Shown one piece after another: positions 1,087 to 17,351 of a stretch of 45,319 nt of DNA. Below the pieces are notes generated by a model. It was given only the letters and a program-made list of their open reading frames with translations. It did not search any database and was not told the DNA's origin. The translations under genes and the position numbers were made by a program. The first letter of the stretch is position 1, and each line of letters begins with the position of its first letter. The stretch is taken from positions 1-45,319 of the forward strand of contig CAMEJP010000001.1 in NCBI GenBank assembly GCA_945920185.1, in the 5' to 3' direction. The stretch comes from an uncultured Eubacterium sp. (lineage in GTDB: Bacteria > Bacillota > Clostridia > Lachnospirales > Lachnospiraceae).

Positions 1087-2580
1087 TCATCTTTCAAGTT
1101 TCGTATCAAGTTCAAACCAGAATTCCACGCCATCCTCTACATTTTTGACACCGTAATCCTTATTATGCAATTCCATTATTGCCTTTACAATTGAAAGTCC
1201 TATGCCGTTTCCTCCATAACTTCTTGTTCTGGCTTTATCAACTTTGTAAAATTTTTCCCATATTCTTTCTATATCTTCTTCAGGAATATTTTTTCCTGTA
1301 TTTTTAACGGTTATTCTGACCACATCACCTTTTTCAACGCTGTCAATGGTAATTATCTTTTCACCTTCGCAGTGGTTAATGGCATTGGTAACATAATTGG
1401 TAACTACCTCTTCTATCTTGAATTCATCTGCCCATACTATTATAGGCTTATTGATTTTAACATCAATAGAGATACCGTTCTGAGAAGCCCTGAGTGCATT
1501 TGATTCGGCTATGGAATTAATAAGCTCGGTAACATTAAATTTTTCCATAACAATATGGTCGTTCTTTGACTCTAACTGATTGAGTGACAAAAGCTGCTTT
1601 ACCATATCATTCATTTTTTTAGCTTCATCAACTATAACGTCACAGTAATACTCCGCATTTTCTTTAGAGTCATAAATTTCCTCCTTAAGTCCTTCTGCAT
1701 AGCCTTGTATGAGTGCTATCGGGGTCTTAAGTTCGTGTGAAACATTCGCTATAAAATCTATTCTCGACTCTTCCTGCTTCTGCTTATTTTCTATATCATT
1801 TTTAAGTTCATTATTGGCAGTTTTCAACTCCGAAATAGTTATATCAAGCTTATCGGCAAGCTTATTAAGACTTTCGCCCAAAATACCTATTTCATCATTA
1901 TCGTTTCCTGAATATCTCTCATCAAATTTTATCTCTGTCATCCTCTCAGCTACGGCTGACAGTCTTTTTATAGGCTTAGCCAGACGTGTGGCAAGCACCC
2001 ATGCACTTAAAGAAGCAATAACTATAAAAAGCACACCAACCTGAAGGATAAACTTATTAGACAGTTTAACGCTGTCTTTAATACTTTTCACGGGAATACG
2101 AAGCAATAGAGAGTTATCGCTTCCTACGTATCCGAATATTTCAAAGTATTCCCCCTCCATGTCCGCATCATATACCTTTTGAAGGGTATACTCGTCAGTA
2201 GAAAGGATTATATTATTCTTGTTCTGCTGTCCGAGAAGATTTTGTGCCATTCTCTCTTTCATCAGTTTGGTATCATTTGCAGTAGCATACACTGCAGCCC
2301 AGTCAGAACGAAGTATTATGGCAGAAATGTTGTTAGGCGCACAAAGCCTTTCAATATAATTCTCAAATTCTTCCTTTTCTATATTTCCATCGTCATAATC
2401 CTCAAGAGCACGTCCAAGTCTTATATATGAACTGACAAGCTGTTTCTGTTTGCTTTTAACATAGAATTTTTCAAAAAATAATGTATTAAAAAAGCAAATA
2501 AGAATGATTATGGCAGTAACATCAAGAATAAGCATTGCCGTTATCTTAAATCTTATGGAATGAGTTATCTTACGCTTCAA
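1087..2580 (-). CDS. Two-component sensor histidine kinase
   Basis: This 497-residue membrane histidine kinase has a transmembrane segment near residues 13-35, an extracellular sensor region to about 175, a second transmembrane segment near 177-199, a HAMP domain, and a HisKA dimerisation domain with H-box FIANVSHELKTP (phosphorylated His about 282). The C-terminal HATPase domain contains the N-box (NYVTNAINH) and glycine-rich motifs (GGNGIGLSIVK). Translation appears to start at a TTG (2578-2580), which overlaps the last 11 bases of the response regulator gene, with GGGG upstream; this suggests translational coupling. The stimulus cannot be told from sequence. The downstream lipoprotein could be an input or an output. 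Confidence 0.95.
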   Translation of the reverse strand: MKRKITHSIRFKITAMLILDVTAIIILICFFNTLFFEKFYVKSKQKQLVSSYIRLGRALEDYDDGNIEKEEFENYIERLCAPNNISAIILRSDWAAVYATANDTKLMKERMAQNLLGQQNKNNIILSTDEYTLQKVYDADMEGEYFEIFGYVGSDNSLLLRIPVKSIKDSVKLSNKFILQVGVLFIVIASLSAWVLATRLAKPIKRLSAVAERMTEIKFDERYSGNDNDEIGILGESLNKLADKLDITISELKTANNELKNDIENKQKQEESRIDFIANVSHELKTPIALIQGYAEGLKEEIYDSKENAEYYCDVIVDEAKKMNDMVKQLLSLNQLESKNDHIVMEKFNVTELINSIAESNALRASQNGISIDVKINKPIIVWADEFKIEEVVTNYVTNAINHCEGEKIITIDSVEKGDVVRITVKNTGKNIPEEDIERIWEKFYKVDKARTRSYGGNGIGLSIVKAIMELHNKDYGVKNVEDGVEFWFELDTKLER

Positions 2581-3244
2581 ACTTATACCCCATTCCCCAG
2601 ATAGTCTTTATATAATCGCCCTTGTCGCCCATTTTGCTTCTGAGCTTTTTAACATGGGTATCTATTGTTCTTGCATCGCCAAAATAATCATAATTCCATA
2701 CATTGTTAAGTATCTTTTCACGCGACAATGCAATTCCTTTATTCTCAACAAAATATGTCAAAAGCTCAAATTCTTTGAAACTTAGCTCTACCACTTTACC
2801 GTCAATCGTAACAATGTGAGCCTGCTTGTCTATCTTTATGCCGCTTACTTCAATAACACCGTCGTTTCCTATGGCATTTGTCCTTCTCAATATGGCATCT
2901 ACCCTTGCAGTCAGAATCTTAGGGCTGAACGGCTTGGTTATATACTCGTCCGCACCTGTGTCAAAGCCAAGCAGTTCGTCACGTTCCTCAGATTTTGCAG
3001 TAAGCATAATGATAGGCACTTTAGATTCCTTTCGTATCTCCTTGCACACGGATATTCCGTCACGTTTTGGCATCATAAGATCAAGTATTACTAACGCTAT
3101 ATCCTTAGTGGAAAAGAAGACATCCAACGCCTCATCGCCGTCTCCGGCTTCAATTACTTCAAAATCTTTCTTTACAAGAAAATCCTTAACAAGCTTTCTC
3201 ATTCTTTCTTCATCATCTACAACTAAAATTTTGAGTTTGTCCAT
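2570..3244 (-). CDS. OmpR/PhoB-family response regulator
   Basis: An N-terminal receiver domain carries the acidic pocket VVDDEE (Asp10, Asp11), the phosphoacceptor Asp55 in LVILDLMMP, and the conserved Thr and Lys (MLTAKS, ITKPF). A C-terminal winged-helix DNA-binding domain of the OmpR type follows (LSFKEFELL, RTIDTHVKKLRSKM, GMGYKFEA). The second ATG (3242-3244) is chosen because GGAG lies 6 nt upstream, and that GGAG is itself formed by the first ATG and the following codon. It is the first gene of an operon with the kinase, which it overlaps by 11 bp. Confidence 0.95.
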   Translation of the reverse strand: MDKLKILVVDDEERMRKLVKDFLVKKDFEVIEAGDGDEALDVFFSTKDIALVILDLMMPKRDGISVCKEIRKESKVPIIMLTAKSEERDELLGFDTGADEYITKPFSPKILTARVDAILRRTNAIGNDGVIEVSGIKIDKQAHIVTIDGKVVELSFKEFELLTYFVENKGIALSREKILNNVWNYDYFGDARTIDTHVKKLRSKMGDKGDYIKTIWGMGYKFEA

Positions 3245-3343
3245 ACTGTTCTCCATTCCATAACATTCTGTAATACATCATCTGCAATCGCGCAGATAAT
3301 AGGTCTTCCATACATTTTTTGTTATTATAAAACACATATATGA

Positions 3344-4027
3344 TTATTTTGTGAACATATTTAATGGCAGACTTTCTTCCCGCTCATTAAGTTCTCTTTC
3401 CCGACTTTCAAGTTCCTCCGCCCACGAAGAATATTTGTTCAAAAGTTTCTCTTCGTAGTTAAGCACCGTAGGATTATCCTTACTTGCAGCAATAAAGAAC
3501 AAAATTATGATAACAGCCACAAGCACTATGTTAAGAATAAGAGAAATGTGAAATCTTTCCCTGTATTTATTTTCTTTGGCATCAATATCTTTATTAGCAC
3601 GGCTCTTTTCCTTCTTTTTTGCTGTCTTTGCGATATCTGAAATCTTTTCGGTACCTGAAGCGTCCATAGCATTTTTTCTTCTAAAGTCTTCAGTGGAAAC
3701 ATTTTCCTTTTTATTTTCATGCTGTCTGTTTTTTCTTTCGACAGGCTTAAAACCCTTTTTATTTCCTAAAGGTTCTTCCTCAACAAGTTCTATCTCTTCT
3801 TCCTCTATAATGGGAATCGCTTTAATAAGACTTCTGTCCACGCCGTTAGAAAGAAGGTATTCCTGAAGTTCCCTAAGATATTCTGTTCCCACCTTTGTTC
3901 TGAATATTCTGCCCTCCACCATCCTGTTGTATACATTGAGCACAATTTTAGGGTCAGTCATATCATTGTTTTCTTTTAAATATTTGATGCCCTCAAGTTC
4001 TTTCTTTTCTTCAAGAGAATCTGGCAT
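3344..4027 (-). CDS. Unknown protein with one transmembrane helix and a C-terminal coiled coil
   Basis: I do not recognise a family. The 227-residue product has a charged N-terminal region (about 1-75) that looks helical, a Lys/Glu-rich low-complexity stretch (about 75-155), a transmembrane helix near 159-182 (ISLILNIVLVAVIIILFFIA), and a short coiled-coil tail rich in Glu and Arg (EELESRERELNEREES). The start at 4025-4027 is preceded by AGGAG at 7 nt; a longer reading frame exists but has no ribosome binding site. It lies between the tmRNA terminator and the response regulator, all leftward. A structural or scaffolding membrane role is possible but unsupported. Confidence 0.7.
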   Translation of the reverse strand: MPDSLEEKKELEGIKYLKENNDMTDPKIVLNVYNRMVEGRIFRTKVGTEYLRELQEYLLSNGVDRSLIKAIPIIEEEEIELVEEEPLGNKKGFKPVERKNRQHENKKENVSTEDFRRKNAMDASGTEKISDIAKTAKKKEKSRANKDIDAKENKYRERFHISLILNIVLVAVIIILFFIAASKDNPTVLNYEEKLLNKYSSWAEELESRERELNEREESLPLNMFTK

Positions 4028-4126: not shown

Positions 4127-4133
4127 TTAAAAG

Positions 4134-4472
4134 TGGACCTGAGGAGAATCGAACTCCTGTCCGAAGTATCTTTAATTCAGGCATCTTCCATCACAGTCAT
4201 CTTTTTAACATTCCCTCAGACAACCGCCAAATGACGGGCTGTTACCCTTGGTAGCTTCATATTGCTTTTGCTGCCTCAAAGCTTTGGCAACAAAGTTCCT
4301 CGCAAAGTCGACGCCAGTTACTTAAGCAGCGAGTGACCTAAGGCTGACGGCTGCCATTAGGCAGCTAATGCAAAATTATCTTCTGCGTTTAATTTTAAGT
4401 TGAGCTGATGACGCGTGCCCACACGGATGGCTTCCCAAACCTCAAATACCCCGTCGAAACCAGTACAAGCCC
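4134..4472 (-). ncRNA. ssrA: Transfer-messenger RNA (tmRNA)
   Basis: tmRNA frees ribosomes stalled on mRNAs lacking a stop codon and tags the unfinished protein for proteolysis. The 5' end GGGCUUG (4466-4472) pairs with CAGGUCC at the 3' end (4135-4141), closing the tRNA-like acceptor stem, with A4134 as discriminator; CCA is not encoded. The 5' region carries the conserved block CTGGTTTCGACGGG and the 3' region the T-arm GGAGTTCGATTCTCC. The open frame resumes at GCA and encodes the tag AEDNFALAA before TAA (about 4360-4388). It sits directly downstream of smpB, whose product it needs, and has its own promoter and terminator. Confidence 0.97.
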
Positions 4473-15302: not shown

Positions 15303-16181
15303 TTATCTTGAGAATACTGCTGTCCAGTAATAATCACCGTCAGCATTTACCGCTACGCCAACACCTATACGTGTATATGTCTCGTTAAGCATAAGCGCAT
15401 TGTGAGCTTCTGAATACTTCCAGCCATACTCACCTAAAACCACCTCACTTGGAGATGTTTGATATCGTCCCATATTCTCGGCATATGAGCCATACATTCC
15501 GTATACCGTGAATACTGAACTCGCTTTCTGACCATTCGGTCTGATGTGATGACTTCTGCCATCAACTACCTGCACGTCAAAACAGTCAACCCATGCATTC
15601 TCTGTTGAGCGGTGCATAGCTACCGTTACCAAAGAATCATCATATGCAAGAGGGGCTAAACCGTTCTCTGCTCTGTATGAATTAACAAGGTCAGCTACTT
15701 CTAAAGCAAGTGCTCCGTACTGCTCCCTGTTTTCTGCTGCTAAAATCTTTGTCTGCTCATCAGTAAGCACTACACCCTTTATCGGCTCAGGAAGAGTTGC
15801 TTCATAGCTTTCCAAAACCGTATCACTGTAGTCTGCTTCTGTTTCTTCTGTCTCTGCCTCTGTGGCAATCTCTTTACTTTCAATGTTCTCCTCTGTAACA
15901 GTCGGCGCATCACCCTGTTCTGCATAAGCCTCCTCAGCTTCCAAAACATCATACTGAGCTTCAACCGCAACAGGTGCTTCAAACTCTTCTGCCGCCGTAA
16001 TGTCTGCTTCAACCTTCTGCACTTCAACGGTCTCACTAATTTTTACCGTATCAGCAGCAACAGAAAAATTCTCAGCGGCTCTTGAATCTGAATTATCTAA
16101 AAACAAAATTCCTGTTCCTATTAAGCAAATGCTTAAAACAAAAACTCCTGTGATTTTCAAAATTCTTTTTCGTAACATCAT
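15303..16181 (-). CDS. Secreted CAP-domain (SCP/PR1, YkwD-like) protein
   Basis: The 292-residue protein has a Sec signal sequence (basic MLRKRILK, hydrophobic core to about 28, likely cleavage after an A-A near 36), a Glu/Ala/Val/Thr-rich linker (about 40-140) and a C-terminal CAP domain (about 150-292) with family motifs: VADLVNSYRAENGLAPL, AMHRSTENAW, YAENMGRYQTSP, YSEAHNALMLNETYTRIGVG, and YYWTAVFS. CAP proteins are extracellular; the role of bacterial members is mostly unknown, with binding or surface remodelling proposed. AAGGAGG lies 7 nt before the first ATG. The leader of about 195 nt contains a c-di-GMP-I riboswitch and a terminator, so expression should answer to c-di-GMP. Confidence 0.92.
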   Translation of the reverse strand: MMLRKRILKITGVFVLSICLIGTGILFLDNSDSRAAENFSVAADTVKISETVEVQKVEADITAAEEFEAPVAVEAQYDVLEAEEAYAEQGDAPTVTEENIESKEIATEAETEETEADYSDTVLESYEATLPEPIKGVVLTDEQTKILAAENREQYGALALEVADLVNSYRAENGLAPLAYDDSLVTVAMHRSTENAWVDCFDVQVVDGRSHHIRPNGQKASSVFTVYGMYGSYAENMGRYQTSPSEVVLGEYGWKYSEAHNALMLNETYTRIGVGVAVNADGDYYWTAVFSR

Positions 16182-16225: not shown

Positions 16226-16258
16226 AAAAAAGCACCCGACCTGTTACCTGCCGGATGC
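16226..16258 (-). terminator. Regulated terminator of the c-di-GMP riboswitch
   Basis: In the leftward RNA GCAUCCGGC pairs with GUCGGGUGC (9 bp, two G-U pairs, 9-nt loop; 16232-16258), followed by six U residues. Its CCGGC can alternatively pair with GCCGG at the 3' edge of the aptamer (16280-16284), giving an antiterminator. Confidence 0.85.
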
Positions 16259-16273
16259 CATAAATCATAATGA

Positions 16274-16354
16274 TTGCAACCGGCTGTCATTACACATTAA
16301 AAATGTGGTTAGACCCTTGGCTTTGCGTCCTTGCGTTTCCACAAGTTTGCCTAA
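16274..16354 (-). promoter_or_regulatory. Cyclic di-GMP-I (GEMM-I) riboswitch aptamer
   Basis: The minus-strand RNA shows the signature of the class I c-di-GMP riboswitch: GGCAAAC, a hairpin capped by a GAAA tetraloop (CUUGUG-GAAA-CGCAAG), the conserved GGACGCAAAGCC, then AAGGGUCUAA with a second hairpin (CACAUU/AAUGUG) and the closing AUGACAGCCGGUUGC. The GAAA loop and the opposite helix are the known tetraloop-receptor pair. The aptamer is followed by a terminator whose stem competes with the aptamer edge, suggesting that ligand binding turns transcription off. It controls the CAP-domain gene only, as far as visible here. Confidence 0.93.
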
Positions 16355-16382
16355 TATTCAAATTTTCTTAACCTATGCGTTT

Positions 16383-16411
16383 ATGTTATCATATAGTTGT
16401 AGCTCTGTCAA
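16383..16411 (-). promoter_or_regulatory. Sigma-A promoter of the riboswitch and CAP-domain gene
   Basis: TTGACA (16406-16411) and TAACAT (16383-16388) on the minus strand are 17 bp apart. Transcription would start near 16376, about 22 nt before the aptamer core. Confidence 0.8.
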
Positions 16412-16424
16412 CTGTTTTTTAATT

Positions 16425-17351
16425 TTATGTATCCGAAAGTTTGGCACGGTTCTCGTCAATTATCCGCTGCCCTCTTGCCCATAAAACCTCCGAGCCGTCC
16501 TTTACAAGCGAAAATCTTTTGCACACTTTATCGTAAGTCACCTCATGTTCTTCCCACGACTTGCATTGTGTCGCTCCGTTAAGAAGCATTGGCTGCATAC
16601 GGTCAAGTGAATTGGCATATTTTGCCTCCATGCTCTGTCCGAGTTCAAATTCCTCCCACAAGCCTTTAAGATACTCTCCCTGATTTTCAGGAAGTATCCC
16701 GAATATCCTGTCTGCCGCCGCACGCTCTCTTGCCGCTTTGGTAATATAGCCTTCTTCATCATAGGCGTATGTGTCTCCGGCGTCTATTTCCACCATATCG
16801 TGAATAAGCACCATAAGCATAACCTTTTCCAGATTCACGTCAGCATTTGCATATTCTTTTAAAAGATAAGCCATAAGCGCAAGATGCCACGAATGTTCCG
16901 CATCATTTTCCTTGCGTTCTCCGCTTGCTATATAAGTCTGGCGGAATATGCTTTTTATCCTGTCTGCCTCAAGGATAAAATTAATCTGGCGTTCCAGCCT
17001 GTCAGAAGATTCATCCGGCGTACTAATCATGGCTTCTATTCTGTTCCAGTTGACATTTATATCCTCGCCTGAAAGGTCACATGCATATCTTAGATATTCC
17101 CTGTAAATGTGCATTGCCTTATTCCGACTCTTGTGAAGCTTTCTCAAGGAAGATGCCATAACCTTTTCAAGCACGTTTACATTTTCCTTACACAGAAACT
17201 CTTCGCTTCCCTTTTGTCCGCAAAATGCAAACTCGGCCTCTTCATCCCTGAATTCATTTGCTATAAAAAGCTCCTGAACAGTCCTCTTTGAAGTACCTCG
17301 TATAGAATATTCCTTTGCAAAGCGTTCCCCGCTTTCTTTTATAGTTACCAT
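16425..17351 (-). CDS. HD-domain hydrolase (HD_3/YfbR-like) with an unusual N-terminal half
   Basis: Residues about 115-305 form an HD domain of the 5'-nucleotidase-like HD_3 type: EADRIKSIFRQTYI, the metal-binding ENDAEHSWHLALMAYLL and LMVLIHDMVEIDAGDTYAYD, and a later HD-family DRMQPMLLN. Members act on nucleotides or other phosphate esters. The first 110 residues (VTIKESGERFAKEYSIRGTS onward) do not match a domain I recognise; most relatives I know are about 190 residues, so this looks like a fusion or extended form. GGAG lies 7 nt before the ATG. It follows mnmA by 22 bp on the same strand. Confidence 0.8.
   Translation of the reverse strand: MVTIKESGERFAKEYSIRGTSKRTVQELFIANEFRDEEAEFAFCGQKGSEEFLCKENVNVLEKVMASSLRKLHKSRNKAMHIYREYLRYACDLSGEDINVNWNRIEAMISTPDESSDRLERQINFILEADRIKSIFRQTYIASGERKENDAEHSWHLALMAYLLKEYANADVNLEKVMLMVLIHDMVEIDAGDTYAYDEEGYITKAARERAAADRIFGILPENQGEYLKGLWEEFELGQSMEAKYANSLDRMQPMLLNGATQCKSWEEHEVTYDKVCKRFSLVKDGSEVLWARGQRIIDENRAKLSDT

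Follow-up and report, generated by a model that had tools for sequence, protein, structure and literature searches.

A predicted c-di-GMP-I OFF riboswitch upstream of a gene for a putatively exported CAP protein

Introduction

To our knowledge, no agreed role has been assigned to bacterial CAP proteins. In the 45,319-nt stretch of DNA analyzed here (the window), a 243-nt gap separates an HD-domain gene (16425-17351, minus strand) from a CAP gene, and this gap is the site of an aptamer of the c-di-GMP-I class. The locus raises the question of whether c-di-GMP controls the CAP gene and, if so, in which direction. Earlier work has described riboswitches of this class with both ON and OFF platforms and in tandem (PMC9262584, PMC9481103, PMC12452182), including tandem c-di-GMP-I aptamers before transglutaminase-like genes in Bacillota (PMC12452182). 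We conclude that the leader most probably acts, with a probability of roughly 85%, as a c-di-GMP-I riboswitch of the transcriptional OFF type that controls the gene for a predicted exported CAP protein.

Results

On the minus strand, a promoter, the c-di-GMP-I aptamer, an intrinsic terminator, a ribosome-binding site, and the CAP gene follow one another in this order (Table 1). An earlier note on this DNA had placed a promoter, an aptamer, and a terminator ahead of the CAP gene at 16226-16411; we found each element on that strand and in that place, and the coordinates were exact. The aptamer lies 91 nt from the CAP gene, whose ATG is preceded by AGGAGG as the ribosome-binding site. The promoter has TTGACA at 16411-16406 and a TAACAT ending at 16383, agrees with the consensus at 10 of 12 bases, and would be expected to start the RNA at about 16376. 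Across the whole promoter scan there were 6 promoter-like sites compared with 5.0 in shuffles; thus, this promoter call has positional value only. The terminator was missed by a simple terminator scan, owing to its loop. MnmA, a neighbor of the CAP locus, had best matches in a contig search that were mostly named Lachnospiraceae, at 65-69% identity, in agreement with an origin of the window in that family. The window also carries a tmRNA gene at 4131-4472 on the minus strand (RF00023, 148.5 bits).

Table 1. Features of the CAP leader and gene in window coordinates
Feature	Position	Strand	Details
Promoter	16383..16411	-	TTGACA, 17-nt spacer, TAACAT, extended -10 TG; upstream position adjoining the aptamer
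c-di-GMP-I (GEMM-I) aptamer	16272..16361	-	RF01051; P2 GAAA tetraloop, P3, ligand-pocket G and C conserved
Switching strand A, GCCGGUUGC	16276..16284	-	Aptamer 3' strand; contains the presumed ligand-pairing C (16276)
Intrinsic terminator	16226..16260	-	Hairpin 16260-16232, about -15.5 kcal/mol, then U6 at 16231-16226
Strand T, GCAUCCGGC	16250..16258	-	Terminator 5' arm; pairs with strand A to form the antiterminator
CAP gene	15303..16181	-	PF00188, 292 aa; ATG at 16181

The aptamer matched the RF01051 covariance model over positions 1-87 of 87, with 66.7 bits (cut-off, 35) and an E value of 5e-11. The Rfam check that had been proposed for it thus gave a full-length match far above the cut-off, and the GAAA tetraloop claimed for it is indeed the GNRA tetraloop of P2. 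The pocket G in AGGCAAAC and the C in GGUUGC, residues whose roles in GEMM-I have been described (PMC9262584), align to the RF01051 consensus. By analogy with C87 of Cd1 (PMC9262584), the C at 16276 would be expected to pair with the ligand. These conserved residues suggest that the aptamer would bind c-di-GMP, whose presence in the cell is plausible because the same genome has 15 GGDEF domain matches and 3 flagellin-like matches. There is no obvious P1 helix, and so the affinity may be low. Some GEMM-I aptamers sense cGAMP, with the preference set by one pocket base (PMC9262584, PMC9481103), and this base is an A in some tandem leaders of the family. However, the window aptamer has a G within AGGCAAAC at the position of Cd1 G11 and Vc2 G20. 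This base and the GGDEF domains argue against another cyclic dinucleotide, such as cGAMP, as the ligand, and we regard that alternative as extremely unlikely.

The tandem leaders with the A are a triple (L085, 727-987) and a double (L086, G263:C86:69725-69930), in which the aptamers directly adjoin one another with no intervening terminator and several of them carry the A. Translational control or cGAMP sensing is possible at these two loci.

The CAP protein consists of an N-terminal signal-like segment, a low-complexity acidic stretch, and, as had been claimed from the sequence, a CAP domain (PF00188 at residues 164-290, 54.8 bits compared with a gathering cut-off of 21.1). Read by eye, the N terminus has a positively charged start followed by a hydrophobic stretch; on the basis of this segment the protein is predicted to be exported, and the segment may be a membrane anchor. 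Against the YkwD family (NCBIfam TIGR02909) the protein scored 56.1 bits, short of the cut-off of 171. A single-sequence search returned no solved-structure match, and a contig search with the protein as the query returned no relatives; the CAP alignment was too variable for use as a search query. A motility link of the CAP gene is plausible, given the GGDEF domains and flagellin-like matches of the genome.

How could the aptamer act on the terminator? The earlier note had pointed to a pairing of GCCGG with CCGGC. This pairing is real and longer than stated: strand A and strand T (GCCGGUUGC:GCAUCCGGC) pair at 8 of 9 positions to give an antiterminator. The terminator itself starts 12 nt past the aptamer match and has no base in common with the aptamer; thus, the two can coexist. 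The sole competing pairing that we found at this platform opens the aptamer. When the RNA was folded by transcript length, three phases were distinguished. Before strand T emerges, a closed aptamer costs little; at transcript ends 16250-16238, the antiterminator beats the closed apo aptamer by 8.3-9.0 kcal/mol; and when the 3' arm of the terminator is complete, aptamer plus terminator are ahead by 2-3 kcal/mol, all of these being folding energies that ignore tertiary contacts and kinetics. Since the antiterminator is favored in midtranscription and the terminator once it is complete, termination would follow if a ligand kept the aptamer shut during the middle phase. The cost of a closed aptamer base was 8.9 kcal/mol, compared with 2.3 ± 1.8 kcal/mol in dinucleotide shuffles of the platform, none of which was as high (0/200). 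A second, independent measure of the antiterminator gave 1/60.

In the mechanism that we propose, the terminator 5' arm (16258-16250) would capture the aptamer 3' strand (16284-16276) when c-di-GMP is low, terminator formation would come too late, and transcription would continue into the CAP gene. At high c-di-GMP, ligand binding would lock 16284-16276 into the aptamer, the terminator would fold, and transcription would stop at about 16226. A Cd1-like arrangement, in which terminator and aptamer are compatible and the aptamer 3' strand is drawn into the antiterminator, implies that the switch is OFF at high c-di-GMP. The OFF-switch layout that had been claimed is thus upheld by the compatibility of terminator and aptamer, the excess of the antiterminator over shuffles, and the arrangement of Cd1. 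The aptamer family, the order of promoter, aptamer, terminator, and gene, and the mutually exclusive pairings with their statistical excess are evidenced directly; that the sign in the cell is OFF at high c-di-GMP is what we infer. With this sign, production of the CAP protein would belong to the motile-type state, in which c-di-GMP is low.

The opposite sign, with termination blocked by the bound ligand as it is in pilM, has precedents close at hand. Within the family the ON layout is frequent (43 of the 150 listed aptamers), and the other three c-di-GMP-I matches of the same genome have it, with terminators that use 10-11 nt of the aptamer 3' end. However, the separation of the window terminator from the aptamer and the opening of the aptamer by the competing pairing speak against an ON switch, and no terminator stem that includes aptamer 3' bases, the pilM-type feature, was found at the window platform. 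We therefore consider an ON switch very unlikely. It is also conceivable that the terminator is not regulated by a ligand at all but is a constitutive attenuator with a decayed aptamer; among 69 aptamers followed by a separate terminator, 54 had no significant antiterminator by our strict measure. However, the window aptamer retains all conserved elements, the pairing of strands A and T lies above every shuffle, and this pairing recurs in another genome (G017). Decay thus seems quite improbable, and the OFF switch is the reading that we retain.

The three matches elsewhere in the genome, L074 (G000:C14:31401-31504), L075 (G000:C39:4224-4339), and L076 (G000:C46:2153-2258), are all opposite in layout to the window riboswitch; one of them is weak and degenerate (29.6 bits, under the cut-off). 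An S41 peptidase lies downstream of one, a 541-aa protein downstream of L076, and no clear gene close by downstream of the third. The 541-aa protein (2328-3950, plus strand) has no confident Pfam or NCBIfam match, and an ABC/FtsX gene follows it. In a different genome (L093; G130:C29, about 2.2-8.9 kb), three near-alike c-di-GMP-I aptamers lie in a 7-kb stretch, each with a small gene behind it, and 2 of the 3 have a clear ON-type platform. A recent cassette expansion is possible there.

We then considered whether the link to CAP genes recurs. The sample was 299 genomes of the same family as the window, most likely the Lachnospiraceae, and c-di-GMP-I matches were present in 109 of them. Downstream genes were inspected for the 150 matches listed, which are the higher-scoring ones. 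Among these 150, 12 aptamers at 8 loci lie directly before CAP genes in 7 genomes (G000, G017, G047, G052, G078, G081, and G260, the last with two loci). The survey of genes behind this riboswitch class that the earlier note had suggested therefore favors a CAP link that recurs across the family. When 90 downstream proteins were scanned with Pfam, CAP matches outnumbered those of any other family (7/90), with CAP-adjacent loci having been fetched first and all lying inside the 150 listed. From a background of 53 CAP matches in 60 genomes, and assuming about 2,700 genes per genome, about 0.05 CAP genes would be expected by chance in 138 genes, compared with 7 observed besides the window; this figure is rough, as it counts tandem aptamers and related genomes as independent and draws on the 150 listed, higher-scoring matches.

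Two aptamers in tandem were found in four CAP leaders (G017, G081, and both loci of G260). In G017, the first aptamer has its own window-like terminator; behind the second, no clear terminator was seen. Tandem aptamers before CAP genes in related genomes are at loci L078, L080, L081, and L082.

Of 29 CAP loci retrieved because their proteins resemble the window CAP protein, only 3 had a riboswitch; thus, it is confined to a minority of CAP genes. In the CAP tree the riboswitch label was clustered (2 changes compared with 7.3 in shuffles), and the proteins of the window, G017, and G047 formed one group (96/84). A single origin of the CAP-linked riboswitch was not rejected (AU p 0.23).

Does the OFF sign hold across these leaders? 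The ON layout was seen in 0 of 12 CAP-linked aptamers compared with 43 of 138 others (Fisher p 0.02), and a significant antiterminator in 5 of 8 CAP-linked terminators compared with 10 of 61 others (p 0.01), both p values treating related leaders as independent. The G017 leader has the same platform as the window leader (GCAUCCGGU...CGGGUGC; 1/200 shuffles). Antiterminators also rose above shuffles in G081 (1/200) and at three aptamers of G260 (0/200, 0/200, and 7/200). The G047 leader had no antiterminator, with 128 of 200 shuffles as good, and that of the G052 leader was not significant; thus, the evidence for the OFF sign does not extend to every CAP leader. No terminator was in reach in the G078 leader. 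A duplex-energy classifier of ON and OFF layouts was dropped as too permissive and replaced by the stricter platform measures.

Discussion

Among the closest known systems is Cd1 of the C. difficile flagellar operon (PMC9262584), a measured OFF switch in which the antiterminator pairs the ligand-contacting C and binding is lost. The window switch, which is predicted, resembles it in aptamer class, the lack of an obvious P1, OFF logic, a terminator that follows the aptamer and can form alongside it, and an antiterminator that unpairs the ligand-pocket C. However, Cd1 acts on flagellar genes and not on a CAP gene, and the platform sequences differ. The pilM GEMM-I RNA of Geobacter (PMC9262584) shares the aptamer fold, and its layout is that of L074-L076; it is an ON switch with cGAMP as the ligand, whereas the window terminator uses no aptamer bases.

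Two further c-di-GMP-I riboswitches precede genes for exported proteins. The "Cap" behind the Bc2 RNA of Bacillus thuringiensis (PMC4933901) is a collagen adhesion protein unrelated to CAP (PF00188), and the name is a coincidence. The C. difficile ppep-1 (zmp1) product is made at low c-di-GMP (PMC11477304), as predicted for the window CAP protein, but belongs to the metalloproteases; the entries consulted in that paper's table of C. difficile c-di-GMP targets include no CAP protein. COG2340 (CAP group) is absent from the main text of PMC12452182, and a literature search of partial coverage found nothing that links CAP (PF00188) genes to a c-di-GMP-I riboswitch. Only the recurrent CAP link is likely to be new, the switch itself being of a known kind.

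Whether CAP proteins of this family, most likely the Lachnospiraceae, are recurrent, unreported c-di-GMP-I targets, often behind tandem aptamers and built as OFF switches, so that they would act at low c-di-GMP in motility or dispersal, we regard as evenly poised. A direct RNA link to c-di-GMP, recurring ahead of CAP genes across seven genomes of the family, would indicate when some CAP proteins should be made. Moreover, within one genome a single aptamer class apparently works with opposite signs on distinct exported or envelope functions.
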